Assembly: GCF_001423885.1 (NCBI RefSeq)
Contig: NZ_LMPP01000001.1
Location: 434,001-498,000, forward strand
Origin: Rathayibacter sp. Leaf185
GTDB taxonomy: Bacteria; Actinomycetota; Actinomycetes; Actinomycetales; Microbacteriaceae
Length of the DNA: 64,000 nt
Direction: 5' to 3'
Shown: one piece after another, positions 15,632-51,117 of the stretch
How the letters are laid out: each line of letters starts with the position of its first letter
Numbering within the stretch: position 1 is the first letter of the stretch
Notes under the pieces: model-generated
Seen by the model: the letters and a program-made list of their open reading frames with translations, nothing else
Told to the model about the DNA's origin: nothing
The model's database searches: none
Position numbers and translations under genes: made by a program

Positions 15632-17527
15632 TCAGACCGCTCTCGGGTCCACTCCGGCGGAGTCGTCGCCCGCCGACAAGGCCTGCCCGAGGAAGCGCAG
15701 CAGCCTGAGCAGCAGCAGCTCCTTCGACTCCGACCGTCGGTACTCGTGACCCTCTCCCTCGAGCCGCAGGTACTCGACCGGCCGGCCGAGACCCTCCAGC
15801 GCCGCGACGATCTGCTCCGCTTCGCCGATCGGCACGTTCGTGTCGAGCTCGCCGTGGACGACGAGGAGCGGCACGTCGATGGCCGAGGCGCTCCCGAGCG
15901 GCGAGAGGCGCTCGAGCAGCTCGGCGTCGTGCTCGGGGTGCCCGTACTTGGTGACGGCGGCCGAGGCGATCCACGGCTCGGTGTCGCGGTAGAAGGTCAG
16001 CAGGTCGGACATGCCGCAGATGTCGACCCCGGCGGCGAACACCCCGGGCGAGAAGGCGAGCGAGGCGAGGGTCAGGTAGCCGCCGTAGGAGCGGCCGGTC
16101 ACCGCGATCCGGGCCCGGTCGGCGATGCCGGCATCGACCAGGAAGTCGGCGGCCGCGAGCACGTCGTCGAACGCTCCGGTGCGCTTCTCGACGTCGTCGG
16201 CGTGCACGAAGTCGCGGCCGAAGCCCGAGGAGCCGCGGGCGTTCGGCGCGAAGACGGTGATTCCCGAGGCCGCGACGGCCTGGTGCTGCGCCGCGAACGT
16301 CGGACGCTCCTGCGACTCCGGGCCCCCGTGCAGGCTCAGCATCGCCGGGCCGCCCTCGGGCACCCCGGGAGCGCGGTAGAGCCAGCCCGAGAGGGCGAGC
16401 CCGTCGCGGCCGGCGAAGCGCTCGAGGGTGGGGACGACCAGCGGCCCGGTGGGCAGGGCCGGGACGTGGGTGAGGCGCGACCACTCGTGGGTCGCGGTGT
16501 CCATCCGCCACAGCTCACGGGGGCGCTCCGGACCCTCGACGCCGAGGACCACGCTCCCGCCGTCGCGGGAGAGCACGGGAGTCGTCGCCACGAGCCCCGG
16601 CAGACCCTTCACGGGGACCCGCTCGCCGGTGGTGGTGTCGAAGAGCTCGATCTCGCTCGAGCCTGCGACGTTCCAGACGAGCAGGAGCAGGCGGCCGGCG
16701 TCATCGGCGTCGAGGCCCTCGAGCTCGGCGTCGTCGCGCGCAGCGAGCCGGCGGATGCGTCCGCGCCAGCCGTCGGGGCCCAGCGGCATGGCGACCAGCT
16801 GGCGCCGAGGGAGGTCGACGTCGGTCGCGAGGTACGCGACGATCGGGCTCTCGTTGTCGTTGAGCGCGGAGGGGCGCAGCAGCGCGACATCGGTGGATCC
16901 GGTGCCCGAGTCGGGCAGCAGGGCGTGGTTCTCGTTGGTGAGGCGGTCGACGACGACGCAGTACTGGTGACCGCGCTGGCCGTCGCGCACGACCACGAGG
17001 CGCTCCTCGACCGAGAGGTCGAGCACCGAGATCAGGTCGCCGTCGACGAGCGGACGACGCTCGCCCGACACCGGATCGACGAGGAACGAGCGGGTCGGCT
17101 GCTCGGGCTCTGCCGAGGGCACGGTCACCACGACGTGGTGCCCGCTGCGCGTCCACGGGCCGAGCTCGGCGTGGGCGTCGCGGGAGCCCGCGATGCGCCG
17201 CGCGTCCGAGCCGTCGGGGCGCACGACCCAGACCTGGGTGCGGACGCCGCCGTCGGTCGCGACCAGGCAGGCGAGCCAGGCGGAGTCGGCGGACCACGAG
17301 ACGGAGAGGACCGGATCCTCGGTGAAGCGGATGCAGTGCGCGGCGGGCGGCTCGCCCTCGGAGGCGACATCCTGCACCCACACCTCGGGCGAGCCACCAC
17401 GATCGCTGATGAAGGCGGTGCGGGCGGCATCCGGAGTCATGGTGGGGCCCCAGCTGCCCCAGGCGTGGGCGAGCTCGAGGCCGAGCCGCTCGGCGGCGGC
17501 CAGCCGGTCGGGTGCGAGGAGGGTCAT
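15632..17527 (-). CDS. S9-family prolyl oligopeptidase-like serine peptidase
   Basis: This 631-residue cytoplasmic peptidase has an N-terminal beta-propeller (about residues 20-370, with TolB-like repeats such as AFISDRGGSPEVWV) and a C-terminal alpha/beta-hydrolase domain. The triad is visible as Ser in GRSYGGYLTL, Asp in VHGELDTNVP and His in GEGHEYRR. It cleaves small peptides. It is downstream of the amidotransferase and amidoligase genes on the same strand (81-base gap), so it may process or degrade their peptide product; that link is inferred from position. The start is ATG 17525-17527. Confidence 0.88.
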   Translation of the reverse strand: MTLLAPDRLAAAERLGLELAHAWGSWGPTMTPDAARTAFISDRGGSPEVWVQDVASEGEPPAAHCIRFTEDPVLSVSWSADSAWLACLVATDGGVRTQVWVVRPDGSDARRIAGSRDAHAELGPWTRSGHHVVVTVPSAEPEQPTRSFLVDPVSGERRPLVDGDLISVLDLSVEERLVVVRDGQRGHQYCVVVDRLTNENHALLPDSGTGSTDVALLRPSALNDNESPIVAYLATDVDLPRRQLVAMPLGPDGWRGRIRRLAARDDAELEGLDADDAGRLLLLVWNVAGSSEIELFDTTTGERVPVKGLPGLVATTPVLSRDGGSVVLGVEGPERPRELWRMDTATHEWSRLTHVPALPTGPLVVPTLERFAGRDGLALSGWLYRAPGVPEGGPAMLSLHGGPESQERPTFAAQHQAVAASGITVFAPNARGSSGFGRDFVHADDVEKRTGAFDDVLAAADFLVDAGIADRARIAVTGRSYGGYLTLASLAFSPGVFAAGVDICGMSDLLTFYRDTEPWIASAAVTKYGHPEHDAELLERLSPLGSASAIDVPLLVVHGELDTNVPIGEAEQIVAALEGLGRPVEYLRLEGEGHEYRRSESKELLLLRLLRFLGQALSAGDDSAGVDPRAV

Positions 17528-17608
17528 GCGACCATCCTTCTGCACCGGCCCGCACGCGTGTTGCGCGGCGGGCGAACGGGACGCGACGGTTCGGCACCGG
17601 GCGACGGC

Positions 17609-19390
17609 TCAGCCGACGCCGTGCTCCTGGAGCCACATCTCGAGCAGGGCGAGCTGCCAGAGCTCGTTCGAGCCGAGGCGGGTGCGGGTGGCGTTCGGGT
17701 CGGCGAGGAGGGAGTCGACGGTGGCCGGGTCGAAGATCGCGCGGTCGCGGGCCGACGGATCCGTGAGCGCCGCGCGGACGCGCTCGAGGTACGGCCCCTC
17801 GAGCTGGCGGATCGCGGGTACCGGGAAGTAGCCCTTCGTGCGGTCGATCACCTCATCCGGGACGATGCCGCGCACGGCGCGCTTGAGCACGCCCTTGCCG
17901 CCGTCGGCGAGCTTGAGCTCGGGCGGGATCCGGCCGACGAGCTCGACGAACTCGTGGTCGAGGAACGGCACACGGGCCTCGAGCCCCCACGCCATCGTCA
18001 TGTTGTCGACGCGCTTCACCGGGTCGTCGACGAGCATCACGGTCGTGTCGTTCCGCAGCGCCGCATCGACCGAGGTGTCGGCGCCGGGGCGGCCGAAGCG
18101 CTCGGCGATGAACGCCGTCGCCGCATCCTCGCCGCGCCACTCCGGCGTCAGGAGCGCCTGCAGCTCGGGGAAGCGCCGGTCGAAGAAGACCGACGCGTAC
18201 GCCTCCGCCGCCCCCTCACGGGGGACCCCGGCGAGCGGCGGGTACCAGTCGTAGCCGCCGAGCACCTCGTCGGCGCCCTGCCCCGACTGCACCACCTTCA
18301 CGTGCTGAGAGACGTCCTCACTCAGCAGGTAGAAGGCGACCGCGTCGTGGGACACCATCGGCTCGCTCATCGCGGCGATCGCGCAGTCGATCCCGGGCAG
18401 CAGGCGCGCGGAGTCGATCGCGATGCGGTGGTGGTCGGTGCCGAACCGCTCGGCCACGAGACCCGAGTACTCGAACTCGTTCCCCGACTCCCCGCCCGCC
18501 GAGTCGAAGCCGATCGAGAAGGTCTGCAGGCCCGTCTGACCGGCCTCGGCGAGCAGCGCGACGACGAGGCTCGAGTCGATGCCGCCCGAGAGCAGCACCC
18601 CGACGGGCACATCGGCGACCATGCGGCGCTCGACAGCCGTCCGGAACGACGCGATGAGCGCCTCCTGCCAGTCCCTCTCGGACCAGTCGGCGCGGGAGGG
18701 ATCGCGCGCGAACACCGGCTCCCAGTAGACGTGGTCACGGCTCGTGCCGTCCGGCTCGATCACGCGCACCGTCGCGGGCGGCAGCTTCGTGACGCCGGTG
18801 AGGATGGTGCGCGGTGCCGGCACGACCGAGTGGAAGCTCAGGTAGAACATCAGCGCTGTGCGGTCGATCGAGGTGTCGGCGACTCCGCCCGCGAGCAGCG
18901 CCTGCACGGTCGAGGCGAAACGGAGGCGCTCGGGCGTCTCGTCGAGGTAGAGCGGCTTGATGCCGAGGCGGTCGCGCGCCATCACGACGCGGCCCGAGAC
19001 GTGCTCGACGATGACGAACGCGAACATCCCGAGGAACCGGTCGACGCAGTCGACGCCCCACTCGGCGTACGCCTTGCCGATCACCTCGGTGTCGGAGTGC
19101 GAGAAGAAGCGGTGCCCCTTGCCCTCGAGCTCGGCGCGCAGCTTCTCGTAGTTGTAGATGCAGCCGTTGAACACGATCGAGAGGCCCAGCGCCGGATCGA
19201 TCATCGGCTGGGAGCCGGCGGCCGAGAGGTCGATGATCGAGAGCCGCCGGTGTCCGAGCGCGACCGGGCCGCGGGCCCACAGCCCGTCCCCGTCGGGACC
19301 GCGGTGCGCCATGCACCCGGTCATCCGCTCGACGGCGCCCGCATCGGCGCGCCGCCCGTCGAACCTGATCTCGCCGCCCAGCCCGCACAT
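17609..19390 (-). CDS. Asparagine synthetase-like glutamine amidotransferase (N-acetylglutaminylglutamine amidotransferase type)
   Basis: This 593-residue protein has the two AsnB domains. The N-terminal Ntn glutaminase has nucleophile Cys2 (MCGLGGE) and HRGPDGDG. The C-terminal ATP-pyrophosphatase has LLSGGIDSSLVVAL and GYDWYPPLAG/GQGADEVLGG. The enzyme activates a carboxylate with ATP and amidates it with ammonia from glutamine. Its neighbour is an amidoligase/ATP-grasp fusion ending only 3 bases before the ATG. The closest described context is the two-gene synthesis of N-acetylglutaminylglutamine amide, an osmolyte. The likely target is therefore a small peptide, not aspartate; this is inference. 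Confidence 0.87.
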   Translation of the reverse strand: MCGLGGEIRFDGRRADAGAVERMTGCMAHRGPDGDGLWARGPVALGHRRLSIIDLSAAGSQPMIDPALGLSIVFNGCIYNYEKLRAELEGKGHRFFSHSDTEVIGKAYAEWGVDCVDRFLGMFAFVIVEHVSGRVVMARDRLGIKPLYLDETPERLRFASTVQALLAGGVADTSIDRTALMFYLSFHSVVPAPRTILTGVTKLPPATVRVIEPDGTSRDHVYWEPVFARDPSRADWSERDWQEALIASFRTAVERRMVADVPVGVLLSGGIDSSLVVALLAEAGQTGLQTFSIGFDSAGGESGNEFEYSGLVAERFGTDHHRIAIDSARLLPGIDCAIAAMSEPMVSHDAVAFYLLSEDVSQHVKVVQSGQGADEVLGGYDWYPPLAGVPREGAAEAYASVFFDRRFPELQALLTPEWRGEDAATAFIAERFGRPGADTSVDAALRNDTTVMLVDDPVKRVDNMTMAWGLEARVPFLDHEFVELVGRIPPELKLADGGKGVLKRAVRGIVPDEVIDRTKGYFPVPAIRQLEGPYLERVRAALTDPSARDRAIFDPATVDSLLADPNATRTRLGSNELWQLALLEMWLQEHGVG

Positions 19391-19393
19391 GCG

Positions 19394-21907
19394 TCAGCGC
19401 CCCACGATCCAGGTGTCCTTGGCGCCGCCGCCGCGGGAGGAGTTGACGATCATGCTGCCCTCGGCCGCCACGCGGGTCAGCGCGAGATCGGCGAGGCGGA
19501 CGTCGGACGGCCCCGTCCCCGTCACGAAGACGAAGGCGCGGAGGTCGACGTGCCGGGGCTGCAGCTCGGTGCCCGAGAAGGAGGGCAGGGACGACAGGCG
19601 GACGACCTCCTGTGCGACCCACGCCTCCGGTTCGGCCGCGATCTCGGCGCGCCTCTCGGCGACGCGCACGGCGGCGGCGGAGGGGCCGATCATGACTCCT
19701 CGACCGCCGTAGCCGTCGACGGGCTTGGTCACCAGCTCGCCGACGCGCTCGAGCACGATGCGGCGCTCGGCCTCGTCCTCGGGGCGGTAGGTCGGCACCG
19801 ACTCGAGCAGCGGGCGCTCGTCGAGGTAGTAGCCGATCAGCTCGGGCACGGCGCAGTAGAGCGCCTTGTCGTCGGCGACGCCGTTGCCGGGAGCGTTGGC
19901 GAGGAACACGTGGCCGGCCGCGGCGACCTCGAGCACCCGCTGACCGATCGCGTTGTCGTCGGCGACCAGGTCGGCCAGCTCGACGTCGAGTCGGAGGTAG
20001 AGGGCGTCGACGACGACGCCGTCTGCACGCACGCGACCTCCCTCGACGACGAGATCCCCGGCCTCGAGCAGGGGGAGACCCGCGCCCTCGGCGAGGCGCT
20101 TGTGCTCGAACCAGGCCGAGCTCGATGCGCCGCTCGAGAGCAGAGCCGCAACCGGCTCGGAAACGGCCGGATCGACGCCGTGCAGCAGCGTGCGCCGCAG
20201 CTCGGCGAACGCACTCGACGGGTCGAGCAGACCCTCCGGCCGGGGCAGCTCGGGCAGGAGGTCGTCGACGAGGGAGCGGATGCCCATCGCATAGGCGAGC
20301 CCGCTGGGGTTCCGGAGGTTGTCCTCGAGCACGCGCCATCCGCCGAATTCGTTCCGGACGAGATCGAAGCCCATCACGGCTCCGCGGACGGTGCCCGGTG
20401 GGAGCCGGGTCCCCTCGTCCCGCCAGCCCGCCGAACCGCGGAGCGTCCTGACGACGCCGTCGCGCTCGGCCCGCTTGTCGCCGTACGCGTCCTGGAGGAA
20501 GCACTCGAGCGCACGCGCCCGCTGCTCGAGGCCGGCGGCCAGCTCGGTCCACTCGTGCGCCTGCAGGATCCGCGGCACGAGATCGACCGGGAAGGGCCGG
20601 TCCTCGTCCTCCAGGCGGAAGGTGATGCCGGCCGCCTCGACCAGGCGGTCGCGCGACTCGTGCAGCTCGCCGAGACGCTCGGGACCGAGCCCGCGGAAGT
20701 GCTCGAGGATCGGCTGGTAGGCGCTGCGCGGACGGCCTCCGGTCGCGACGGCCTCGTCTCCCGCGCGCACCCGGTAGGTGCGGAGGCTCGGCGCGGGCAG
20801 GATAGGTCCGCTCGCCGGCCCGTGGGTCTCGGCGATCACGGAGTCGACGACGGCGTCGAGGGTGCCGCGCTCGGCGTAGACCGCCCGCTGGCGATCGGCG
20901 GAGTTGCCCCGCGCGATGAGCGCCTCGGCCAGATCGCGGACCTGCTCGAGGTCGCCGAGCTCGTCGAGGGCGGGCTGGAGGCGCGCGATCATGCTGCGCA
21001 GCGCCTCCGCCGCGGGGACGGGCCGGGGGTGCTCGGTGTGGTCGAGGAGCTGCCCGGCGAGCCCGCCGCGCGCAGCCTGCCAGGTGGCGGCGCGCTGGAT
21101 CGGCGGCGGCGTGTGCCGGAACGGGCGGCCCGCCTCGATGTCGAGCTCGGCCGATCGGACCAGTCCGCGGAAGAGACCGGCGACGAGCACCGCGTCGTCG
21201 ACGATCGGCATCGCGTCGCAGACCCGCAGCTCGAGGGTGGGGGCGTGCGAGGAGGGCCGCACGTCGAAGTAGGCCATCTTGGAGTCGGCGATGACACCGG
21301 TCGCGATGAGGTCGTCGAGGAGGCGGTCGTACTCCGCCGCGGAGGCCAGCGGCCCGGTCGCACCCGCGCTCGGCCAGCGCTGCCAGATGATCGTGCGGAT
21401 GCTCGCGTAGCCCGTGTCCTGGCCGTTCCAGTACGGGCTGCTCGCGCTCGCCGAGAGCAGCACCGGCAGGTCGCGCGCGATCCGCTGCGAGATCTGGACG
21501 GCGAGCTCGCGATCCGAGACGCCGACGTGGATCTGGGTGCCGCAGATCAGCTGCTCGTCCACGAGCATCCGGTACTGCTCCTGCATCCGCCCGTACCGGC
21601 CCGTGCTGGTGAGCTCGAAGTCCTTGTGCTCCGAGCGCGGGGCGGTGCCGACGGCGGCGATGCCGATGCCGTCGGGAGCCGCCGCATCGATGACCGCCTT
21701 GCGGAGGGTGATGAGCTGCTCCCGCAGGCCGTCGAGCGAGTCGACGACCGGGGTGTTCGTCTCGACCGTCGTGCGCTGCAGCTCTGCCGAGAAGTTCTCT
21801 CTCGGCAACCGCGCGAGCACCTGGGGGGCGTGCGCGGAGAGCTGCTTCGTCTCGAGGTCGATCAGGTGGAGCTCTTCCTCCGCGCCGAGTGTGAGTTCTG
21901 CGCGCAT
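19394..21907 (-). CDS. Carboxylate-amine ligase (GCS2/YbdK) fused to circularly permuted ATP-grasp domain
   Basis: This 837-residue two-domain protein combines two peptide-bond-forming folds. Residues about 1-370 are a glutamate-cysteine ligase 2 (YbdK-like) domain: LGAEEELHLIDLETKQL, CGTQIHVGVSD, LELRVCDAMP. Residues about 390-837 match a circularly permuted type-2 ATP-grasp: MGFDLVRNEFGGWRVLEDNLRNPSG, NAPGNGVADDKALY, VTKPVDGYGGRGVMIGPSA, and the terminal SSRGGGAKDTWIV. Both folds join carboxylates to amines using ATP. It is directly upstream of the AsnB-like gene and 70 bases downstream of a Na+/H+ antiporter. The product is unknown; a short gamma-glutamyl-type peptide, later amidated, is a reasonable guess. 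Confidence 0.88.
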   Translation of the reverse strand: MRAELTLGAEEELHLIDLETKQLSAHAPQVLARLPRENFSAELQRTTVETNTPVVDSLDGLREQLITLRKAVIDAAAPDGIGIAAVGTAPRSEHKDFELTSTGRYGRMQEQYRMLVDEQLICGTQIHVGVSDRELAVQISQRIARDLPVLLSASASSPYWNGQDTGYASIRTIIWQRWPSAGATGPLASAAEYDRLLDDLIATGVIADSKMAYFDVRPSSHAPTLELRVCDAMPIVDDAVLVAGLFRGLVRSAELDIEAGRPFRHTPPPIQRAATWQAARGGLAGQLLDHTEHPRPVPAAEALRSMIARLQPALDELGDLEQVRDLAEALIARGNSADRQRAVYAERGTLDAVVDSVIAETHGPASGPILPAPSLRTYRVRAGDEAVATGGRPRSAYQPILEHFRGLGPERLGELHESRDRLVEAAGITFRLEDEDRPFPVDLVPRILQAHEWTELAAGLEQRARALECFLQDAYGDKRAERDGVVRTLRGSAGWRDEGTRLPPGTVRGAVMGFDLVRNEFGGWRVLEDNLRNPSGLAYAMGIRSLVDDLLPELPRPEGLLDPSSAFAELRRTLLHGVDPAVSEPVAALLSSGASSSAWFEHKRLAEGAGLPLLEAGDLVVEGGRVRADGVVVDALYLRLDVELADLVADDNAIGQRVLEVAAAGHVFLANAPGNGVADDKALYCAVPELIGYYLDERPLLESVPTYRPEDEAERRIVLERVGELVTKPVDGYGGRGVMIGPSAAAVRVAERRAEIAAEPEAWVAQEVVRLSSLPSFSGTELQPRHVDLRAFVFVTGTGPSDVRLADLALTRVAAEGSMIVNSSRGGGAKDTWIVGR

Positions 21908-21977
21908 GGGGTTACCGTACGACGCCCATGTTTCGGGCAGCTACGGGGTTGCCCGCTCCCTGACCGCGTGGATGCGG

Positions 21978-23642
21978 TCAGCGGGCCGTGCGGCCGCGCA
22001 GCTCGATGTCGATCTGCGAGGAGTCGAGGGCGGCGAGCACCGACTCGAGCACGTCGGCGTCGAAGGTGCCGTCGTCGCGCGCATCGAGCAGGGCCGAGCG
22101 CTGCGCGTCGATGACCGAGAGGCGGTGCCGCTTGGCGCTCTCGAACGACTCGGTGCTCCTCTCCTCCGGCGCGGGAGGCGGGGCGTCGATCGCGTCGGCG
22201 CTGGTCCTCAGGAGGGCGAAGATGCGCGTGCGCTCGTCCGCCCGGGCCCTGTCGACCGCCTCCTGGTCGACCTTCGGGGCGATCGTGCGGAGCAGCGGCC
22301 CGATGGTGCCGCCCTGCAGCACGAGCGAGAGGGTCGCCACCGCGAAGGCGATCAGGACGAGGACGGAGCGCTGCGGAGTGTCCTCGGGCAGTGTCTGCGC
22401 GGCCGCGACAGTGACGGCTCCGCGCATCCCGGCCCAGACCACCGCAGTGCCCTCCCGCCAGCCCAGCGGTGCGTGGACGAAGTACTCCATGTCGGCGAGG
22501 ATCCGCCTGAGCCGCACGGAGAAGCGGTCGAGGTCGCGCTCGGAGCGCTTCCGGCCGCGCTGCGAGTCGAGCGTCTCCTGCCGGCCCTCCGGTGTGGCCA
22601 GCTTCTCGTGCAGATCCTCCACGCGCGGCCGCATCCGCTCCCGGAGCCGGGATCTGCTCGACAGGACGCCGAGCAGCGGCGCCACGTAGATCGCGCGGAC
22701 GAGGATCGTGAGCAGCAGCGCGCCGACCGCGACGAGGACCGCCGGCCAGACGCCCGCATGATCCTCCTCGACGCTCGTGACGATCGCCCGGATCTGCAGC
22801 CCCATGGTCAGGAACACGGCGCCCTCGAGCACCAGCTCGACCGTGCGCCAGTTCTGCGAGTCCGAGAGGCGGTTCTGCGGCGAGAGCTCGCGCGGGGCGC
22901 GGATGCCGGTGACGATTCCGGCGACGACAGCCGCCACCAGACCGGAGGCGCCCAGCAGCTCGGCCGGCACCGAGGCGAGGAACGGCACGGTGAACGACAG
23001 GATCGTGTTGACCGTCGGATCGCCGATGCGCTGCCGCACGACCAGGTTCAGCCAGCCGACGAGGGCGCCGATCGCGACCGCGACGGCCACCGAGTAGGCG
23101 AACGAGCCGACGGCTCCCCAGAACGAGAATCCGGCCGCGGCGGCGACGATCGCGGTGCGCAGCAGCACCAGGGCGGTCGCGTCGTTGAGCAGGCTCTCGC
23201 CGTCGAGCATCGCCACGACCCTCCGCGAGACGGTCGTGCCCTTGACGATCGAGGTGGCGACGGCGTCGGTCGGGCTGACGATCGCGCCGAGCGCGACTCC
23301 CCAGGCGAAGCCGAGATCGGGGACGGCGAGGAGGAAGAACACGCCCAGCGCGAGCGAGGTGCCGACCACGAGCAGCACCGACAGCCCGCTGATCGCGCCG
23401 AACTCGCGTCGGAAGTTCATCGCGGGCATCGCCACCGCGCTCGAGTACAGCAGCGGCGGCAGCACCCCCTGCAGGATCCACTCGGGCTCGATCTCGACCG
23501 CCTCGACGCCGGGAAGGAGGCCGGCACCGACTCCGATCGCCACGAGCACGAGCGGCGAGGCGATGCCGAGGCGGGGGCCGACCAGCGTCGCGGCCGCGAT
23601 CACGACGAGCGCCGTCACGATCACGACGAGGAACTGGGTCAC
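21978..23642 (-). CDS. Na+/H+ antiporter (CPA1 family)
   Basis: This 554-residue antiporter has about 12 membrane helices and a C-terminal cytoplasmic tail of about 150 residues. Typical CPA1 signatures are LPPLLYSSAVAMP, GAIVSPTDAVAT (ion-binding Asp) and DGESLLNDATALVL. It exchanges sodium for protons in pH and salt homeostasis. The start is GTG 23640-23642, overlapping the stop of the upstream YbaK gene by 4 bases, which implies coupling. Its place directly before the amidoligase genes suggests a shared salt or osmotic theme. Confidence 0.88.
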   Translation of the reverse strand: MTQFLVVIVTALVVIAAATLVGPRLGIASPLVLVAIGVGAGLLPGVEAVEIEPEWILQGVLPPLLYSSAVAMPAMNFRREFGAISGLSVLLVVGTSLALGVFFLLAVPDLGFAWGVALGAIVSPTDAVATSIVKGTTVSRRVVAMLDGESLLNDATALVLLRTAIVAAAAGFSFWGAVGSFAYSVAVAVAIGALVGWLNLVVRQRIGDPTVNTILSFTVPFLASVPAELLGASGLVAAVVAGIVTGIRAPRELSPQNRLSDSQNWRTVELVLEGAVFLTMGLQIRAIVTSVEEDHAGVWPAVLVAVGALLLTILVRAIYVAPLLGVLSSRSRLRERMRPRVEDLHEKLATPEGRQETLDSQRGRKRSERDLDRFSVRLRRILADMEYFVHAPLGWREGTAVVWAGMRGAVTVAAAQTLPEDTPQRSVLVLIAFAVATLSLVLQGGTIGPLLRTIAPKVDQEAVDRARADERTRIFALLRTSADAIDAPPPAPEERSTESFESAKRHRLSVIDAQRSALLDARDDGTFDADVLESVLAALDSSQIDIELRGRTAR

Positions 23643-24178
23643 GAGACGAGGCCGAGCCCGGCGATCACCTCGGCGCCGGCGAGCCGGGCGAGCACCGCCC
23701 CCGGGAGCACGATCTTGGACCGGCGGACGCCGCTGCCGATCACGACGGCGGGCCGCTCGAGCACGCGCGCGTCGATCAGGAGGCGCCAGCCACTGGGCAG
23801 GCCGATCGGCGTGATGCCGCCGAACTCCATCCCCGACTCGGCGACCGCCCGCTCCATCGGGAGGAACGACGCCTTGCGGACGTCGAGCAGCCTCCGGACG
23901 GCTCCGTTCACGTCGGCGCGGGAGTCGGCCAGCACGACGCACGCCGCGATCCGCTCCTCGCCCGCACGGGATCCGGCGACGACCACGCAGTTGGCCAGGT
24001 CGCCGTCGTCGAGTCCGTAGCGCTGCTTCGTGACCGCCGTGTCGGAGTCGGCGGCGTCGATCTCGACGACCTCCAGCTCCCCGAGCAGGCCGTCGCGCTC
24101 GGCTCCGGCGCGGACGGGGTCGGCGAGCAGGTCGAGGTGCTCCGACGCGGGCACGGTGGTCAGCGAGCCGAGGGTCAT
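23639..24178 (-). CDS. YbaK/EbsC-family (aminoacyl-tRNA deacylase-like) protein
   Basis: This 179-residue YbaK-fold protein belongs to the group that removes wrongly attached amino acids from tRNA. Visible are NCVVVAGSRAGEERIAACVVLADSRADVN, the expected RKASFLPMERAVAESGMEFGGITPIGLP segment, and VVIGSGVRRSKIVLPG. The conserved glycine-rich GGITPIG loop is intact. The exact substrate (Cys-tRNA-Pro or other) cannot be assigned. The ATG at 24176-24178 is the natural start. It overlaps the antiporter start by 4 bases. Confidence 0.82.
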   Translation of the reverse strand: MTLGSLTTVPASEHLDLLADPVRAGAERDGLLGELEVVEIDAADSDTAVTKQRYGLDDGDLANCVVVAGSRAGEERIAACVVLADSRADVNGAVRRLLDVRKASFLPMERAVAESGMEFGGITPIGLPSGWRLLIDARVLERPAVVIGSGVRRSKIVLPGAVLARLAGAEVIAGLGLVS

Positions 24179-40124: not shown

Positions 40125-42173
40125 TCAGCGGGTGGCCACCAGCATCGCGTGGCCGTCGGTCGTCGAGACGCGGACGGTGGCGTAGCCGTCGGACCAGTCG
40201 ACCTCGAGCTCGCGGCCCTCGGGCTGCAGGTGCACCGCGCTCGGGCGGGCCGGGAGGCGCAGCGACACCGGCACGTCGACCAGCGGGAAGGCGTCCTCGA
40301 CGACGTCGAGGCCGAGCTGGCCGGGGCCGTGCGCCGCGGTCGCGGTGGCCACCCGGGCGGCGACGAAGCTCAGCAGGTGCACGACGACCGCCTCCTCCGT
40401 CTCGACCACCGTGCTCTCGAGGTGCACCGGCCCGCCCGCACGCACGAGCGGCTCGGGCAGCAGGCGGTCGAGCACCGCGCGCACGAGGTCGCGGAACGCC
40501 GGCGCCCCGTGAGCACCGAAGGTCTCGAAGGCCGCGGTCGAGGACACGGCGACGGATCCGCTCACCGCGAGCGCGGACCAGGGCGACACCTCGCGGCGCG
40601 GCGGGGTGTACTCGTGGCCGCTGAAGTGGTCCCAGGTGCGCTCGAAGAGCGGCTCGACGACATCGACCAGCGACTCCGCCGGCGCCTCGGCGCGCATCCG
40701 CAGCGACGGCTCGTACTGCACGTGATCGAAGCCGTGCGTGCCGGCCACCCCGTCGCGCGGGCGGAGGAACACGTGGCTGAACGGCGACGCCCCCTCGAGG
40801 CTCAGCCCCGGGACGTCGAGCGATTCGAGCCCCGCGGTGCCGGAGCGGGCTCCGCGGCTGACGAACACCGCTCCTCCGGCGGCGATGCGCTCGCGCAGCA
40901 CGGAGGCGAGGGCCTCGTCGATCACCGTGGTCTCGGGGACGACGACGAGCGCGGCGGCACTGAGGTCGGCTCCGGGCGGCACGAGCACGAACTGCTGGCG
41001 CAGCTGCTGCAGCGCGCGGACGACGCCGAATCCGGCGGCTCCCGGGTCGTCGCCCAGCGCGGGATCGACGATCACCGCGATGTCGGCCTGCGGGACGCCT
41101 CCTCGCACGAACGGCTCGGAGGCGGCGATGTGCGAGTACACCGAGCCGATCAGCTCGTAGGTCACCGGGTTGAGGGCGCCGGAGGGGTGCAGCAGGTCGC
41201 CGACACCGCCGGTCATGCCCTGGGCGAGGATCTGCGAGCACTCGTACAGCAGCGCGGCGCGGGGCTTGAGGCCGCCGTTGTCGCCCCAGCTCTTGTAGAA
41301 GCGGCCGGTGTGGCTGAGCGTCGGCTTGTCGAGCGGCCGCACGAAGCGCGAGACGTAGGGGAAGTAGCTGTAGCCCCAGCCACCGGAGGGCAGTGCCTCG
41401 ATCTCGATGTGCCGGACGAAGCCCGACTCCTCGGCCAGGGCGGTCTTGGGACGGCTGTTGAACCAGACCCCGGAGGCGACGTCGGCGGCGAGATGCGGCT
41501 CGACCAGGTCGCGGAAGCGGCCCATGTAGGCGTGGGCGACCCGGCGCGCGTACTCCGCACGGTCGTCGGCGTCGGCCGGATCGAGACCGGCCGCGGTCAT
41601 GCCCGCCTTCGCCCACACGGAGGAGCTCGGCTGGTCCCAGCACATGTCGAGGAAGAGGCCGTCGAGCGGCGCGAACCGGTCGATCACGGCCTGCACCTGC
41701 TCGACGAGGAAGTCCTGGTAGGGGCTCGACATGTCGAGGATCTGCCAGCCCGCCTCGTAGGGCAGACCGGCGCCGAACTTCACCTGACGGCCGGTCGCGT
41801 CGAGCGCGATCCAGTCCGGGTGCAGATCGGCGGCGTACTCGTCGCACTGCACGCTGAGGTAGATCGGCGCGCGGATGCCGACCGCGTGCAGCGCGTCGAC
41901 CTGCTGCGCGAGCAGGTCGAGGTCGCCGGCGAGACCCGGGTGCCGCTCGGGGCGCCCCGTGTCGGTCTCGGAGCCGTCGGCGGTGCCGAAGTAGAGCCGT
42001 CCGTGGTGGCACTTGGCGAACACCGTCACGCTGTCGACCCCCGCCTCGACGAAGGTGCGCGCGAAGGCGTCCGGGTCGAAGGCGGCTCCGACGCCCTCGA
42101 CGTCGGGGCCGGTGTGGAAGTCGAGGTGCACCGTGCGGTGCGGGAACGCGTCGAGCGCAGTGGTGGAGGTCAT
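40125..42173 (-). CDS. Glycoside hydrolase-like protein (GHL6 / beta-galactosidase trimerisation-type)
   Basis: This 682-residue protein has an N-terminal TIM-barrel (about residues 15-345: VDSVTVFAKCHHGRLYF, APIYLSVQCDEYAA, LDGLFLDMCWDQPSS, GVWFNSRPKTAL, HIEIEALPSGGWGYSYFPY). It continues into a Rossmann-like trimerisation domain (about 350-590), as in GHL6/GH42-type proteins. Conserved Asp/Glu residues in FLDMCWDQ and IEIEALP are candidate catalysts. No signal peptide. It is the last gene of the fucose island's left operon, so it may act on fucosides imported by the ABC system; that is context only. The start is ATG 42171-42173. Confidence 0.75.
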   Translation of the reverse strand: MTSTTALDAFPHRTVHLDFHTGPDVEGVGAAFDPDAFARTFVEAGVDSVTVFAKCHHGRLYFGTADGSETDTGRPERHPGLAGDLDLLAQQVDALHAVGIRAPIYLSVQCDEYAADLHPDWIALDATGRQVKFGAGLPYEAGWQILDMSSPYQDFLVEQVQAVIDRFAPLDGLFLDMCWDQPSSSVWAKAGMTAAGLDPADADDRAEYARRVAHAYMGRFRDLVEPHLAADVASGVWFNSRPKTALAEESGFVRHIEIEALPSGGWGYSYFPYVSRFVRPLDKPTLSHTGRFYKSWGDNGGLKPRAALLYECSQILAQGMTGGVGDLLHPSGALNPVTYELIGSVYSHIAASEPFVRGGVPQADIAVIVDPALGDDPGAAGFGVVRALQQLRQQFVLVPPGADLSAAALVVVPETTVIDEALASVLRERIAAGGAVFVSRGARSGTAGLESLDVPGLSLEGASPFSHVFLRPRDGVAGTHGFDHVQYEPSLRMRAEAPAESLVDVVEPLFERTWDHFSGHEYTPPRREVSPWSALAVSGSVAVSSTAAFETFGAHGAPAFRDLVRAVLDRLLPEPLVRAGGPVHLESTVVETEEAVVVHLLSFVAARVATATAAHGPGQLGLDVVEDAFPLVDVPVSLRLPARPSAVHLQPEGRELEVDWSDGYATVRVSTTDGHAMLVATR

Positions 42174-42217
42174 TGCTGGTCCTTCGAGATCGAGGGTGGT
42201 CGGGGGCCGTCGCGGGG

Positions 42218-42973
42218 TCACCGCGGACGGACGCGCAGGGTCGTGACTCCGCCGTCGACCGACAGCGAGGTGCCGGTCGTGGATCCGGAGGTGGGGCTGG
42301 AGAGGTAGGCGACGGCGAGCGCGACCTCGTCGGGCGACACCATCCGGCCCGTCGCCTGGCGGGCGTCGAGGGCTCGGCGCTCGGCGGCCGGGTCGTCGAA
42401 GCCCTCGAGCATGCGCGCGACGAACGGGGTGTCGACAGTGCCGGGGCTGACGCAGTTGACGCGGATTCCCTCGCGGACGTGATCGGTCGCCATCGCGAGC
42501 GTCAGACCCCAGACCGCGCCCTTGCTGGCGGAGTAGAGGGCGCGCTGCGGGAGGCCGTTGAACGCCGCGATCGAGCAGAGGTTGACGATCGAGGCGGCGG
42601 AGGAGCGGCGCAGCAGAGGGAGGGCCGCGGCGCTGACCCGCGCGATGCCGACCACGTTCACGTCGAGCACGCGCAGCCACTCGGCCGAGTCGTTCTGCTC
42701 GACCGTGCCGACGGCGCTGATGCCTGCGTTGTTGACGAGCACGTCGAGCGCGCCGGCGGTGCGGGCGATCTCGTCGAAGGCGGCGGTCACGGCGGAGTCG
42801 TCGGCGACGTCGCAGCGGATCCCGGTGAGCCCGGCGGGGAGGTCGTCGACGGCGCGATCGAGCACGATCACGCTCGCTCCGCGGCGGGAGAGCTCGAGGG
42901 CGGTGGCCAGCCCGATGCCGGAGGCGCCGCCCGTCACCGCCGCGACGAGACCGGCGAACTCGCCGGCGCTCAT
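42218..42973 (-). CDS. SDR oxidoreductase, likely 2-keto-3-deoxy-L-fuconate dehydrogenase
   Basis: This 251-residue classical SDR has cofactor motif TGGASGIG, NNAGIS, catalytic YSASKGAV and the end segment SLSVDGGVTTLRVRP. In the non-phosphorylating L-fucose pathway an SDR oxidises 2-keto-3-deoxy-L-fuconate to the 2,4-diketo acid. It overlaps by 4 bases (ATGA) with the gene for the hydrolase that cleaves that product, which supports this role over L-fucose dehydrogenase. The start is ATG 42971-42973. Confidence 0.82.
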   Translation of the reverse strand: MSAGEFAGLVAAVTGGASGIGLATALELSRRGASVIVLDRAVDDLPAGLTGIRCDVADDSAVTAAFDEIARTAGALDVLVNNAGISAVGTVEQNDSAEWLRVLDVNVVGIARVSAAALPLLRRSSAASIVNLCSIAAFNGLPQRALYSASKGAVWGLTLAMATDHVREGIRVNCVSPGTVDTPFVARMLEGFDDPAAERRALDARQATGRMVSPDEVALAVAYLSSPTSGSTTGTSLSVDGGVTTLRVRPR

Positions 42974-43857
42974 GCCGTCGCCTGCTCGAACTCGTGGCGC
43001 GCGACTCCGAGGCCGTCGATCGACAGCTCGACCACGGCTCCCGCCCGCAGGTACGGCGTCCCGGGGAGCCCGAGCGCGACTCCGGCCGGGGTGCCCGTGT
43101 TGATGAGGTCGCCGGGGTGCAGCACCATGAACCGGCTGAGGTACCAGATCAGGTGCGCGACCGGGAACACCATCGATGCCGTCGTGCCGTTCTGGCGCTC
43201 GACTCCGTCGACCGAGAGGCGCAGCCCCAGGTCCTGGGGGTCGGCCACGGAGGCGGCGGGGAGGATCCACGGGCCCAGCGGATTGAACGTCTCGCAGCTC
43301 TTGCCCTTGTCCCACTGGCCGCCGCGCTCGAGCTGGAACTCGCGCTCGGAGACGTCGTGCGAGAGGACGTAGCCGGCGACGTGCGCGAGCGCATCATCGG
43401 GCGAGTCGAGGTAGCGCGCCGTCCGGCCGATCACGACGCCGAGCTCGACCTCCCAGTCGGTCTTCGTCGAGTCGACGGGGATGAGCACCGGATCGAACGG
43501 GCCGCCGATCGTCGAGGGGTCCTTCATGAAGACGACCGGCTCGGCCGGCAGCTCGGCGCCCGTCTCGGCCGCGTGATCGCGGTAGTTGAGTCCGATGCAG
43601 ACGATCTTGCCGGGCGCCGCCAGCGGGGCGCCGACCCGGAGCCCTGCCGCCCCCTCGAGCGGGGACAGCCGCCCCGCGGCGTGGGCGGCGAACACGTCGT
43701 CGAGGGTGGTCTCGCGCAGTGCGGCGGGTGAGACGTCCGGGAGGATCGGCCGCAGGTCGAAGGCGACGCCTCCGACGGACAGCACCGGCACCTCGGAGCC
43801 GCGCGGCCCGAGTCTCTGGACGACGGCGTGCGCCGGCGGGGTGTGGGGGTGGTTCAC
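42970..43857 (-). CDS. Fumarylacetoacetate hydrolase-family protein, likely 2,4-diketo-3-deoxy-L-fuconate hydrolase
   Basis: This 295-residue FAH-fold enzyme has GKIVCIGLNYRDHAAETGAE, the metal-binding Glu set in DWEVELGVVIG, Asp in GYVLSHDVSERE and the end region GDLINTGTPAGVALG. Enzymes of this type split 2,4-diketo-3-deoxy-L-fuconate into pyruvate and L-lactate, the last step of the pathway. GTG 43855-43857 follows the ribosome site GAGGAG. It is the first gene of a minus-strand operon facing the FadR-type regulator (51 bases apart). Confidence 0.85.
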   Translation of the reverse strand: MNHPHTPPAHAVVQRLGPRGSEVPVLSVGGVAFDLRPILPDVSPAALRETTLDDVFAAHAAGRLSPLEGAAGLRVGAPLAAPGKIVCIGLNYRDHAAETGAELPAEPVVFMKDPSTIGGPFDPVLIPVDSTKTDWEVELGVVIGRTARYLDSPDDALAHVAGYVLSHDVSEREFQLERGGQWDKGKSCETFNPLGPWILPAASVADPQDLGLRLSVDGVERQNGTTASMVFPVAHLIWYLSRFMVLHPGDLINTGTPAGVALGLPGTPYLRAGAVVELSIDGLGVARHEFEQATA

Positions 43858-43908
43858 GAGGACTCCTCGATCGGTGGCGGGGCGCGGATGCGCCGTTACA
43901 GTGGCGGG

Positions 43909-44715
43909 ATGAACGACAGTGGCGCGACGGGCGACGACGACACGACGGGGCAGGGACCGGCCGGGGCCGGCCGCGCGAGCACTCCGCGGCGCGGCGACAC
44001 CCGGGCGCCGTCGCCGCGCTCGCAGACCGACGTCGTGGTGGAGGAGATCAAGGCGAGGATCATCAGCGGCGAGCTGAAGCCCGGGTCGCGGCTGCCGATC
44101 GAGAAGGACCTCGCAGTGCTGCTCGGCGTCTCGCGCAGCCCCCTCCGCGAGGGCGTGCGCGCACTCGCGATGATGGGGGTGCTCGAGAGCCGGCAGGGTG
44201 ACGGCACGTACGTGACCTCGCTCGACGCCTCGCTGCTGCTGGCGCCGCTGGGCTTCCTGGTCGACCTGCAGTCCCCCGACGAGGCGGCGAACCTCGCCTC
44301 GGTGCGCCGGCTGCTCGAGGTGGAGGCGGCCGCTCGCGCGACCCTGCGCATCACTCCCGAGCAGATCACCGAGGCCGAGGAGCTGCTGGAGTCGATCGCC
44401 GGCATCGTCGACGCCCCCGTCGAGGGGCACCACGGCGAGATCATGGACGTCGACATCCGGTTCCACCGCCTGGTCGCCCGCGCGGCCGGCAACTCCGCTC
44501 TCGAGGCCCTGATCGAGGCGTTCGCGAGCCGCACCGTGCGGGCGCGCACCTGGCGCAGCCTCACCGAGCAGGGCGTCGTGCCGCGCACCCACCGCGAGCA
44601 CCACGACATCGTGCGGGCCCTCGCCTCCGGGGACCCTGATCGCGCCCGGCTGGCCATGTCGGTGCACCTGATCGAGGTCGAGGACTTCATGGCCGCCCAC
44701 CCCGAGGCCAACTGA
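43909..44715 (+). CDS. FadR-subfamily GntR transcriptional regulator
   Basis: This 268-residue regulator has a disordered N-terminus (about 40 residues), a GntR winged helix (VVEEIKARIISGELKPGSRLP..LGVSRSPLREGVRALAMMGVLE), and an all-helical FCD ligand domain. The FCD metal residues are visible in FHRLVARAAGN, THREHHDIVRAL and MSVHLIEVEDF. Such regulators bind sugar acids, so a fuconate-type inducer fits. Its location between the FAH/SDR operon and the fucosidase-transporter operon makes it the likely local repressor. The start is ATG 43909; the ribosome site is weak. Confidence 0.9.
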   Translation: MNDSGATGDDDTTGQGPAGAGRASTPRRGDTRAPSPRSQTDVVVEEIKARIISGELKPGSRLPIEKDLAVLLGVSRSPLREGVRALAMMGVLESRQGDGTYVTSLDASLLLAPLGFLVDLQSPDEAANLASVRRLLEVEAAARATLRITPEQITEAEELLESIAGIVDAPVEGHHGEIMDVDIRFHRLVARAAGNSALEALIEAFASRTVRARTWRSLTEQGVVPRTHREHHDIVRALASGDPDRARLAMSVHLIEVEDFMAAHPEAN

Positions 44716-44731
44716 GCGGACGGGACGGGAG

Positions 44732-44785
44732 GCACTGCAGGTCGGGTCGCTGAAGGGCGGCTCACTGCAGGCCGCGTCACTGGAG
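44732..44785 (-). repeat. 15-nt tandem repeat spanning the fucosidase stop codon
   Basis: On the minus strand the last codons CTC CAG TGA are followed by similar 15-base units: CTCCAGTGACGCGGC (44785-44771), CTGCAGTGAGCCGCC (44770-44756), CTTCAGCGACCCGAC (44755-44741) and a partial CTGCAGTGC. Unit 1 and unit 2 each carry an in-frame TGA. Confidence 0.8.
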
Positions 44786-46060
44786 GAAGATCTCGATGAC
44801 CGGCACCGCGACATCCGGTCGGACCACCGGCAGCGTGAGCGTGAGCGTCCCGGGAGCCTGGCCGCCGACACCCGTGGTGAGCGGCTTGACGTCGGGCGCG
44901 ATCTCGCGGAACGGGATCTCGGAGGCGTCGTTCAGCAGCTGCGCGTAGGCCACCCGCCCGGCGAGCCCCGGCAGGTGCACGTGCTCGAACGGCCAGGCGA
45001 ACAGGTGCAGGTAGAGCCGATCGCCGCGCTGGGTGTACCGGGAGTCGACCGGCGGCGTGAACTCCGATGCGCCGGCTCCGTAGATCGACCGCGCGTGCAG
45101 GTGCATCCACTCGCCGAACGCCGAGAGGGTGCCCAGCGCCACCGGGTCGAGCTCGCCGCGTCCGTTCGGGCCGACGTTGAGCAGCATGTTGCCGTTCTTC
45201 GAGACGCCGTCGATCAGCATCCGGATCATCAGCTCGGGCGCCTTGTGGTTGTGGTTGTCGCGGAAGTAGCCCCAGCTGCCGTTGATCGTCTGGCACGCCT
45301 CCCAGGCGACCGGCACGCCGTCGACCTCCATCGGCCTGTCGGGCTGGTACTGCTCGGGGGTGACGATGTCGCCGGGGATCTCGAGTCGGTCGTTGACGAC
45401 GATCTCGGGCTGCAGCTCGCGCGTCAGCTTCATGAGCTCCTGCGAACCCCAGTCGTCGGCGCCCTTGCCGCCCCAGACGGGGTGGTGGTGGTCGTTCGCG
45501 TAGGAGAAGTCGTAGAAGAGGTAGTCGATCCGCCCGTAGTCGGTGAGCAGCTCGCGGATCTGGCCGTGCAGGTACTCGCGGTACCGCGCCATGTCACGCC
45601 CCTCGTCGAGCGCGGCGATCTCCTCGGCGGTGTCGTCGCGCCGAGGGTGGCGGCCGTCGATCGTGAAGTCGGGGTGATGCCAGTCGAGCAGCGAGTGGTA
45701 GAAGCCGACCCGGAGGCCCTCGGCCCGCACCGCGTCGACGAACTCGCGCACGAGGTCGCGGGCGGCGGGCGTGTGCACCGCGGTGTAGTCGGTGAGCTTC
45801 GAGTCCCAGAGGCAGAAGCCCTCGTGGTGCTTGGTGGTGAGCACCACGTAGCGCATGCCGGCCTCGCGGGCGGCGCGCGCCCACGCCCTCGGGTCGTAGA
45901 GGTCGGGATCGAAGTAGGCGGCGTAGCGCTCGTACTCGGCGGTCGGGGTCTTCTCGAAGTTCATCACCCACTCGTGCCGGGCGGGGAGGGCGTAGAGGCC
46001 CCAGTGCACGAACATCCCGAAGCGGTCGTGGGTGAACCAGGGGGCGGGGGCAGACGTCAT
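44777..46060 (-). CDS. Alpha-L-fucosidase (GH29)
   Basis: This 427-residue GH29 enzyme begins at the barrel: FGMFVHWGLYALPARHEW, YVVLTTKHHEGFCLWDS, GFYHSLLDWHHPDF, and the nucleophile Asp in YGRIDYLFYDFSYAND. NGNMLLNVGPNGRGELD is the family's late-barrel motif. It removes terminal alpha-L-fucose. There is no signal peptide, so it acts inside the cell on imported fucosides. It lies downstream of the two permease genes (52-base gap) in one operon. The 3' end carries a small tandem repeat. The start is ATG 46058-46060. Confidence 0.92.
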   Translation of the reverse strand: MTSAPAPWFTHDRFGMFVHWGLYALPARHEWVMNFEKTPTAEYERYAAYFDPDLYDPRAWARAAREAGMRYVVLTTKHHEGFCLWDSKLTDYTAVHTPAARDLVREFVDAVRAEGLRVGFYHSLLDWHHPDFTIDGRHPRRDDTAEEIAALDEGRDMARYREYLHGQIRELLTDYGRIDYLFYDFSYANDHHHPVWGGKGADDWGSQELMKLTRELQPEIVVNDRLEIPGDIVTPEQYQPDRPMEVDGVPVAWEACQTINGSWGYFRDNHNHKAPELMIRMLIDGVSKNGNMLLNVGPNGRGELDPVALGTLSAFGEWMHLHARSIYGAGASEFTPPVDSRYTQRGDRLYLHLFAWPFEHVHLPGLAGRVAYAQLLNDASEIPFREIAPDVKPLTTGVGGQAPGTLTLTLPVVRPDVAVPVIEIFLQ

Positions 46061-46112
46061 CGTCGGAGGTCCTTTCGGAAGGAGGGGCGGCAGGAGGAGG
46101 GGCGGCCGGAGG

Positions 46113-47048
46113 TCACTTGCCGCCGAGGCCGCTCGAGAGCGCGATGCCCTTCACGAGGTAGCGCTGCAGCAGGATCGCGAGCCCGGCGGTCGGGATCATC
46201 GAGATGGTCGAGGCGGCCATGATCAGCTGCCACTGCTTGCCGCCCTGGCCGAGGAAGCTGTTGAGGCCCAGCGGCACGGTGGCGTAGGAGGGGTCGTTGA
46301 TCGCGATCAGGGGCCACAGGAAGCTGTTCCAGTAGTTGATGAAGGTGAAGACGACGAGCACGGCGATGGTCGGCTTGACGACCGGCACGATGATGCCGAG
46401 CAGGATGCGCAGGTGCGACGCGCCGTCGAGCTTGCCCGCCTCCTCCAGCTCCATCGGCACCGAGAGCATCGCCTGGCGCAGGAGGAACGAGCCGAACGCG
46501 GTGAACGCCCACGGCACGATGAGCGCCTGGTAGGAGTCGATCCAGCCCAGCTGCGTCATGAAGAGGAACATCGGGATGACCACGACCTCCTGCGGCACCA
46601 TCAGGGTGCCGAGGAAGACGAAGAAGATCCCGTCGCGGCCGCGGAACCGCAGCCGCGAGAACGCGTAGGCCGAGAGGACGCTCGTCACGACGACGAGCAG
46701 GGTGCCGAGGACCGACACGATCGCGCCGTTGAGCATGTAGGTGCCGAACGGCACGTAGCTCCACACGTCGGCGTAGTTCTGCCAGCGGATCTCGCTGCCC
46801 AGCAGCGACGGAGGCGAGGCGAAGACCTCGGCGCCGGGCTTGAGCGAGGTGGACACCATCCAGATCAGCGGCACCATGAACAGCAGCACGAAGACCGTCA
46901 GCAGCACCTGCGAGACGATGTCGGTGCGGCGGCGCCGGCGGTTGATCGCCGACAGCGACATCGCCTCCGAGCGGGCCTTCTCGCCCGCCGAGCGGGTGAC
47001 GGTGCGGCGGCGGGGGGCCGCGGCGACCGAGAGCGTGCGGTCACTCAT
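46113..47048 (-). CDS. Sugar ABC transporter permease (MalG type)
   Basis: This 311-residue permease has six helices and the EAA loop EEAGKLDGASHLRILLGIIVP that docks the ATPase. The N-terminal about 40 residues are cytoplasmic and basic. It forms the membrane pore with the MalF-type partner, whose gene it overlaps by 8 bases. The ATG is at 47046-47048. Substrate is likely fucose or fucosyl-oligosaccharides by context. Confidence 0.92.
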   Translation of the reverse strand: MSDRTLSVAAAPRRRTVTRSAGEKARSEAMSLSAINRRRRRTDIVSQVLLTVFVLLFMVPLIWMVSTSLKPGAEVFASPPSLLGSEIRWQNYADVWSYVPFGTYMLNGAIVSVLGTLLVVVTSVLSAYAFSRLRFRGRDGIFFVFLGTLMVPQEVVVIPMFLFMTQLGWIDSYQALIVPWAFTAFGSFLLRQAMLSVPMELEEAGKLDGASHLRILLGIIVPVVKPTIAVLVVFTFINYWNSFLWPLIAINDPSYATVPLGLNSFLGQGGKQWQLIMAASTISMIPTAGLAILLQRYLVKGIALSSGLGGK

Positions 47049-47985: not shown

Positions 47986-48073
47986 GGCGCTCCTTCGCGT
48001 CGTAGCTCGAGGGTCGATTGCAGGGCAGCGAGACGGGGCGGGGCGCCGGTCGGCGACGCCCCGCCCCGCGTGG

Positions 48074-49315: not shown

Positions 49316-49521
49316 TGTTCCTCCTCATTGAGGTGTTCGTGGGGCTCCGGTGCGGGGCCTGCGAACGATGGTCATTGATCGAAATGGATCAGATGATTCT
49401 TCAGTGTGCGAGCCTCACACGCGCCTGTCAAGCGATTCTGGGCCCTGTTCAGCGCCTTTTCATCACGATTGATAGTATCTATTCAGTAAACGCCCGCCCA
49501 CCGCTCGATCGAAGGACGATG
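49316..49521. promoter_or_regulatory. Divergent promoter region between binding protein and second fucosidase
   Basis: This AT-richer 206-base spacer drives the transporter operon to the left and a GH29 gene to the right. An inverted repeat TGATC (49376-49380) / GATCA (49387-49391) over a 6-base spacer is a candidate operator. A TAGTAT -10-like element at 49473-49478 with TTCAGC about 18 bases upstream may serve the rightward gene. Control by the nearby FadR-type regulator is inferred. Confidence 0.45.
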
Positions 49522-51015: not shown

Positions 51016-51041
51016 AGCGGATCCCTCGCCGGTGGACGAGA

Positions 51042-51072: not shown

Positions 51073-51117
51073 CGTCGTCCGGCGGCGAGGGTCGACCCGC
51101 GCGGCTCCGTCAGCGCC

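Follow-up and report, generated by a model that had tools for sequence, protein, structure and literature searches.

A trio of adjoining genes on the minus strand of the window, i.e. the 64,000-nucleotide stretch of Rathayibacter sp. Leaf185 DNA analysed here (contig NZ_LMPP01000001.1, positions 434,001 to 498,000), is proposed to encode an alternative version of the pathway for the osmolyte N-acetylglutaminylglutamine amide (NAGGN). The trio (15632-21907) comprises an unusual ligase, an AsnO-type amidotransferase and an S9 peptidase, which would build, amidate and turn over a short peptide, respectively, and we hold this reading at a probability of roughly 55%. The trio may thus run parallel to NAGGN synthesis and lead to another short peptide amide, of which gamma-glutamyl-glutamine amide is a possible example.

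The ligase, amidotransferase and peptidase genes

The first gene of the trio (19394-21907, minus strand) encodes an 837-residue fusion of a GCS2 domain (YbdK-type carboxylate-amine ligase; PF04107) and a circularly permuted (CP) ATP-grasp domain (PF14403, PF04174), proposed to be a peptide ligase that replaces Ngg, the GNAT/ATP-grasp synthetase that is the usual AsnO partner in NAGGN synthesis. Three bases behind it follows the gene for the AsnO-type glutamine-dependent amidotransferase (17609-19390, minus strand; 593 residues, TIGR03104), which would amidate the C-terminus of the peptide, and thereafter that for the S9 peptidase (15632-17545, minus strand; prolyl oligopeptidase family, PF00326), the proposed turnover enzyme, which has 637 residues from a GTG start, or 631 from position 17527, the start favoured by a codon-based gene caller. 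An antiporter gene lies 70 bases upstream of the fusion gene, and the order of transcription is antiporter, fusion, amidotransferase and S9 peptidase. Domain searches and coordinates confirmed this layout, which had been described in an earlier note on the DNA as four genes on one strand with gaps of 3 and 70 bases and an 837-residue fusion.

The amidotransferase scored 943.2 bits against TIGR03104 (N-acetylglutaminylglutamine amidotransferase; cut-off 570.1), begins with MCG, contains the motif SGGIDSS and is approximately 59% identical to AsnO of S. meliloti. The earlier description as AsnB-like was correct as to the AsnB type, but the protein is not merely AsnB-like, since it belongs to the NAGGN amidotransferase family, and the set is therefore a variant of the NAGGN system and not an unrelated set. 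The best match to Ngg (TIGR03103) in the window's genome reached 28.5 bits against a cut-off of 569, and no Ngg over this cut-off was found in any of the 16 AsnO genomes among 150 Microbacteriaceae genomes (the family sample). Held against the NAGGN system, the locus has its AsnO and lacks its Ngg, and it is because of this absence that an ordinary NAGGN locus was rejected. Annotated NAGGN loci combine AsnO with Ngg, to which an M42 peptidase is added in Azospirillum and Haematobacter; no M42 peptidase is found in the cluster of the window, where an S9 peptidase stands beside AsnO instead, the rest of the genome not having been searched for M42. The NAGGN system of Sinorhizobium and Azospirillum and the window set are alike in the AsnO family and in clustering ligase and amidotransferase genes, often together with one for a peptidase. 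They differ in the ligase (Ngg there, GCS2 with or without CP-ATP-grasp here), in the lack of an acetyltransferase domain here, in the peptidase (M42 versus S9) and in AsnO residues 569 and 573, which are switched.

Within the fusion, residues 7-280 match GCS2 PF04107 (5.5e-49) and residues 445-814 the CP-ATP-grasp of PF14403/PF04174, with PF14403 covered end to end (profile positions 1-374 of 374), and the protein exceeds the cut-off of subfamily NF010041 (368.5 bits, cut-off 332). An AlphaFold2 model showed two well-formed domains (mean predicted local distance difference test score (pLDDT) 85.9, predicted template modelling score 0.83), with one stretch, residues 98-119, falling below a pLDDT of 50. 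Relatives in the PDB are 1r8g, 1tt4 and 3n6x; in a fold search the GCS2 half resembled YbdK (1r8g) and the ATP-grasp half the CP-ATP-grasp 3n6x, the weaker matches being glutathione synthetases. Conserved residues are retained in both halves. The GCS2 fold carries the GhExE metal/ATP signature, as given for GCS2 ligases in excerpts of PMC2588565, and the motif GAEEEL is present in 59 of 64 fusions as called. In the other half, E528, D529, N530, K728 and R790 are invariant across 33 aligned rows, and these residues and the full-length PF14403 match mark it as a CP-ATP-grasp of type 2. The GCS2 half thus shares fold and conserved residues with the YbdK family (1r8g, 1tt4), but differs from it in being fused to a CP-ATP-grasp and linked to AsnO, and in a quick tree the fusion GCS2 is grouped separately from the remaining sampled GCS2 of Microbacteriaceae.

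The bifunctional glutathione synthetase GshF (3ln6, 3ln7) likewise joins a gamma-glutamyl ligase to an ATP-grasp and turned up in the fold search, though with low scores (3ln7, TM-score 0.32 by query). It is built from other domain families, namely a GshF-type GCS and an unpermuted ATP-grasp, whereas the fusion consists of GCS2 and CP-ATP-grasp and is partnered by an amidotransferase and an S9 peptidase; the fusion does not have the domain make-up of GshF. A further likeness, drawn by description and not by sequence, is to pseudouridimycin synthesis, where PumK, a carboxylate-amine ligase, adds Gln and PumM, a second amide ligase, then adds guanidinoacetate (excerpts of PMC7955054). The two ligases there act in sequence, a precedent for the ligase steps proposed here, but the product is a nucleoside antibiotic, and AsnO is not mentioned in those excerpts.

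Conservation, distribution and ancestry

AsnO over its cut-off was found in 16 of the 150 Microbacteriaceae genomes (17 copies) and a full-length or nearly full-length fusion in 15. Both occurred together in 13 genomes, in all of which the two genes adjoin by coordinates, while two fusion genomes (G147, G093) had no AsnO, and three genomes (G002, G040, G120), besides an additional copy in G068, had AsnO without the fusion. A contig scan for the fusion by short exact patterns, which reaches close relatives only, yielded 50 named loci from Rathayibacter, Curtobacterium, Frigoribacterium, Frondihabitans, Naasia, Herbiconiux, Glaciihabitans, Glaciibacter, Microlunatus and others, the closest being Rathayibacter sp. 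VKM Ac-2754 with 96% identity over the fusion. The automatic gene-order tables of these relatives leave out the window, for which its own annotation was used. Of the 50 named loci, 46 have a full-length fusion; the others are cut by a contig end (L107), hold GCS2 only (L108, L110) or are broken (L114). AsnO directly follows in 40 of these 46 (L097 is cut by the contig end), and the S9 peptidase follows AsnO in 37 of the 38 with a readable flank, L080 being the exception. The motif GRSYGG was present in 58 of 59 S9 proteins longer than 500 residues from the collected loci, a number in which some genomes are counted twice.

Ligase, amidotransferase and S9 peptidase are thus conserved together, as had been anticipated, and the fusion as a chance neighbour was rejected by the conserved pairing in the family sample, in the named loci and in a further family, f39. 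The antiporter, which the earlier note had counted among the four genes expected to be co-conserved, fared differently: it lies beside the set in one of the 50 named loci (L067) and in the window, three of the 50 having less than 1 kb upstream, and no copy was found in L066, the named relative closest to the window. Its membership was rejected, and since it is so rarely present the conserved unit is the trio of ligase, AsnO and S9 peptidase.

In a draw of 396 Actinomycetota genomes (the phylum sample), AsnO scored over its cut-off in 46. An Ngg match was present in 32 of these, 30 over the cut-off and two split or cut, that of G490 lying on another contig, and all of the 30 genomes (of 396) with Ngg over the cut-off also had AsnO. 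In the 14 AsnO genomes without an Ngg neighbour, a search at E<=1e-50 found no Ngg. These genomes carry beside AsnO the fusion (four), a stand-alone GCS2 (five), a stand-alone CP-ATP-grasp (four) or no adjoining ligase (one, G444). The four with the fusion are the window's genome and three of f39, in which the fusions are 46-48% identical and the trio is kept; the fusion was found in five of the 396 genomes in all, and in the fifth, G463, the contig ends approximately 1 kb behind it. The stand-alone CP-ATP-grasp lies beside AsnO in family f18 (L034, L035, L036, L038), with DUF1028 behind AsnO in the three that have a flank, which makes it yet another form of the set. A Streptomyces-type order of GCS2, AsnO and S9, without the ATP-grasp half, was observed in four Streptomyces-like genomes (those of f5, labelled thus because their AsnO groups with that of S. 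fungicidicus in the tree) and on an annotated S. fungicidicus plasmid, and likewise by tblastn in Embleya and Nonomuraea; at E<=1e-15 no CP-ATP-grasp match was found in the four Streptomyces-like genomes. GCS2 and CP-ATP-grasp can each be found alone with AsnO, and the fusion unites both. The proposal that two ligase folds build a short peptide that is then amidated therefore needs qualification: the likeliest role is still that an unusual ligase builds a short peptide which ends up amidated, but Streptomyces-type sets have only GCS2 and f18 sets only the ATP-grasp beside AsnO.

A quick GCS2 tree with long branches placed the GCS2 halves of the fusions together with the five GCS2 that adjoin AsnO in Streptomyces-type loci (four Streptomyces-like genomes and S. 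fungicidicus) in one group of 31 rows (support 93); 18 rows fell outside it, 13 of them sharing a single long branch with full support. Nested within the fusion group of this tree are also the stand-alone GCS2 of Agreia, Naasia and four more, which therefore look like fusions that have lost their ATP-grasp half. A more careful AsnO tree, omitting the motif columns and with AsnO shorter than 500 residues (including L038 of f18) and outgroups dropped before the counts, requires at least four changes of partner label. The AsnO rows partnered by CP-ATP-grasp sit among Ngg rows (support 84/98), yet carry Gly573.

In 53 AsnO rows with a known partner, the core was constant whatever the partner (SGGxDSS, EPM, D349, SGQGADE375, Y380, R460, R473, R517 and K519). 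Because this core is invariant across partners, an acceptor that keeps its C-terminal residue unchanged, i.e. glutamine, is favoured. Matched by hand by spacing, Glu375 and Tyr380 may be the counterpart of the Glu-Tyr dyad of PesC (PMC13060819), and D349/R460 would, as a guess, correspond to a further pair. Variation by partner was observed at two positions. At residue 573, Gly occupies 32 of 33 non-Ngg rows, L021 having Asn instead, whereas Ngg rows carry Arg in 18 of 20 cases, the exceptions being L044 with Asn and L049 with Gly. Residue 569 is Arg or Lys in 29 of 33 non-Ngg rows and Leu or Ile in 20 of 20 Ngg rows. After dereplication at 85% and addition of genomes, Gly573 was found in 28 of 29 rows and Arg573 in 20 of 24, the dereplicated counts referring to ATP-grasp-adjacent rows as a whole, as the 900-base neighbour rule labels fusion loci as ATP-grasp neighbours. 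The switch is suggestive and fits an altered N-terminal half of the AsnO substrate.

Proposed pathway and competing explanations

In the proposed pathway, the GCS2 half would activate a carboxylate, for which the gamma-carboxyl of glutamate is the likeliest candidate, and join it to an amino acid, most likely glutamine. The ATP-grasp half, where present, would add a further residue or raise the yield, as in bifunctional glutathione synthetase. AsnO would then convert the C-terminal carboxylate to an amide, taking the nitrogen from glutamine, and the resulting short peptide, blocked and without net charge, would be degraded by the S9 peptidase once it is not needed. The simplest candidate product would be gamma-glutamyl-glutamine amide or a one-residue extension of it. 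In such a molecule the alpha-amino and alpha-carboxyl charges of the gamma-glutamyl residue would cancel, making an acetyl cap unneeded, and a gamma-glutamyl peptide amide that is uncharged without this cap would explain why an acetyltransferase is dispensable. Gene content, conservation, the lack of Ngg and the constant AsnO core are what was observed; substrates, product, osmotic role and step order are those that we infer for the trio, and the product is probably an osmolyte, kinship being the sole support for the osmotic role. For Frankia, an asnO cluster is described in excerpts of PMC5563000 with an 'Ngg' less than 15% identical to the others and a peptidase lying between, and according to excerpts of PMC5768760 FRAAL1888, described as a NAGGN gene, is up-regulated under polyethylene glycol.

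Several observations weigh against the trio being an alternative NAGGN-type pathway. AsnO and S9 occur without an adjoining ligase in G444 and on two Streptomyces plasmids (strains NBC_01001 and NBC_01276). A full-length fusion lacks an adjoining AsnO in six of 46 named loci (L075, L076, L079, L082, L083 and L112, from Frigoribacterium, Naasia and Curtobacterium), and in view of these loci and of G147 and G093 the fusion ligase may also make an unamidated product or act alone where AsnO is absent. In 15 of 64 fusion loci (13 distinct; L017 3281-4195 and 14 further loci, in L112 directly after the fusion), all from Curtobacterium where named, a search with two GNAT queries placed a GNAT gene no more than two genes behind the set, so that acetylation may take place there; a comparison with NCBIfam at E<=1e-8 gave no match for this GNAT. 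Of the eight GCS2 that adjoin AsnO in the tree, three (L019, L021 and L037, i.e. G002, G120 and G270) fall outside the fusion group and may be chance neighbours of AsnO, although they were still counted as GCS2 partners in the residue analysis and G270 is included in the five stand-alone GCS2 genomes counted for the phylum sample. In approximately unbiased (AU) tests, holding all Ngg-partnered AsnO rows together was rejected at p 0.044 only, and a constraint that groups the CP-ATP-grasp rows with those of the fusion and of Streptomyces gave p 0.065, which leaves repeated partner switching of AsnO likely but borderline. Columns 569 and 573 were picked by scanning all columns, exceptions exist on both sides (L021; L044 and L049), and independent contrasts number one on well-supported branches and four on the best tree, hence the grading of the switch as suggestive.

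The same Curtobacterium GNAT genes speak for NAGGN itself as the product, with the fusion taking over no more than the ligase step from Ngg while glutamine is acetylated by a GNAT from another part of the genome. Such an arrangement would also agree with the AsnO score over the TIGR03104 cut-off, with the retention of 211 of the 242 columns conserved among Ngg-partnered AsnO in at least 90% of the fusion-partnered rows, and with weak TIGR03103 matches located elsewhere, far off, in the window's genome. We nevertheless consider it unlikely, as the two GNAT queries found no GNAT beside the set outside Curtobacterium, these genomes have no Ngg, AsnO residues 569 and 573 differ by partner, and the peptidase differs as well, S9 lying within 900 bases of AsnO in none of 40 Ngg rows. 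More doubtful still is an amidated peptide that is secreted, or serves some purpose other than osmotic adaptation, as a signal or secondary metabolite. The patchy spread of the fusion (15 of 150 family and 5 of 396 phylum genomes), the Streptomyces plasmid carrying the set and an EamA transporter gene near two loci would suit such a role, but beyond the trio no neighbour is common across genera in the gene-order tables, and AsnO is closely akin to the osmolyte enzyme.

The fold matches to glutathione synthetases, including bifunctional ones, raise a third explanation, i.e. an amidated gamma-glutamyl tripeptide of the glutathione-amide kind with a redox instead of an osmotic function, in which gamma-Glu-Cys is formed by the GCS half, extended by a third residue through the ATP-grasp half and amidated by AsnO. 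Glutathione amide is known from purple sulfur bacteria, according to excerpts of PMC8877833 and PMC6336425. This is the least probable of the three, given that Streptomyces-type genomes have no CP-ATP-grasp match and f18 sets no GCS2 adjoining AsnO, that AsnO shares its core with the Ngg-partnered enzymes, and that no thiol reductase or peroxidase was found among the few neighbours scanned with Pfam. ABAGG of Micromonospora profundi was considered as a related compound and rejected, its chemistry being unrelated (excerpts of PMC10513789).

Literature searches found no paper describing AsnO with a GCS2 ligase or such a peptide product, in agreement with the view of the earlier note that the product is undescribed. 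Work by Iyer from 2009 reportedly may already predict GCS2/ATP-grasp/AsnB neighbourhoods. If the product of the alternative pathway is new, it would represent a new class of compatible solute in Streptomyces and plant-associated Microbacteriaceae. AsnO genes are named NAGGN amidotransferase whatever their partner, and as 14 of the 46 AsnO genomes of the phylum sample have no Ngg, the name probably denotes the wrong molecule in approximately 30% of these 46; the carriers probably make another small protective molecule than database names state. The TIGR03104 equivalog in NCBIfam gives this name to the variant genes though Ngg is absent, and is probably too specific. The set displays an exchange of modules, in which the capping enzyme is retained and the peptide-building ligase is replaced by another fold, and the residue pair 569/573 offers a cheap sequence test for the expected product. 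Extended to its full reach, the proposal would be a second family of dipeptide-amide compatible solutes in Actinobacteria, with gamma-glutamyl-glutamine amide from GCS2 alone and a longer form from the fusion, a fixed AsnO cap combined with a swapped ligase module, residues 569/573 reading the new N-terminal half, and genomes mislabelled as NAGGN producers; this wider picture is tentative, and we lean against it as a whole.

Neighbouring genes and further loci

The antiporter gene upstream of the trio (21978-23642, minus strand), judged to lie outside the conserved set, encodes a CPA1-type cation/proton antiporter of 554 residues (PF00999). It scored 212 bits against TIGR00831, below the cut-off of 279.6, and the assignment is therefore to the general CPA1-type family only. 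On the same strand, a gene for a YbaK-type tRNA editing domain (23639-24178) overlaps the antiporter gene by 4 bases.

Among the relatives, a Naasia locus (L108 8001-11084) pairs a fusion-group GCS2 with an S9 gene behind it, and neither AsnO nor an ATP-grasp half was seen there. Two AsnO genes have no recognised ligase or peptidase adjacent: that of L020 lies beside type II secretion genes and has Arg at residue 573, and that of L022 lies beside permease and nucleoside hydrolase genes and has Lys at this position. Stress genes were observed near two loci, namely an OsmC gene near a Streptomyces set (L116 3854-4294) and, in Mycobacterium branderi, a CsbD gene close to a GCS2 that belongs to the fusion group but stands alone (L121 4011-4178).

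Elsewhere in the window, 40125-54406 is a likely fucoside use locus with three alpha-L-fucosidase/GHL6 genes, a sugar ABC transporter (binding protein and two permeases), an FAA hydrolase and an aldo/keto reductase, and within it, at 46001-50000, the G+C content falls to 0.68.

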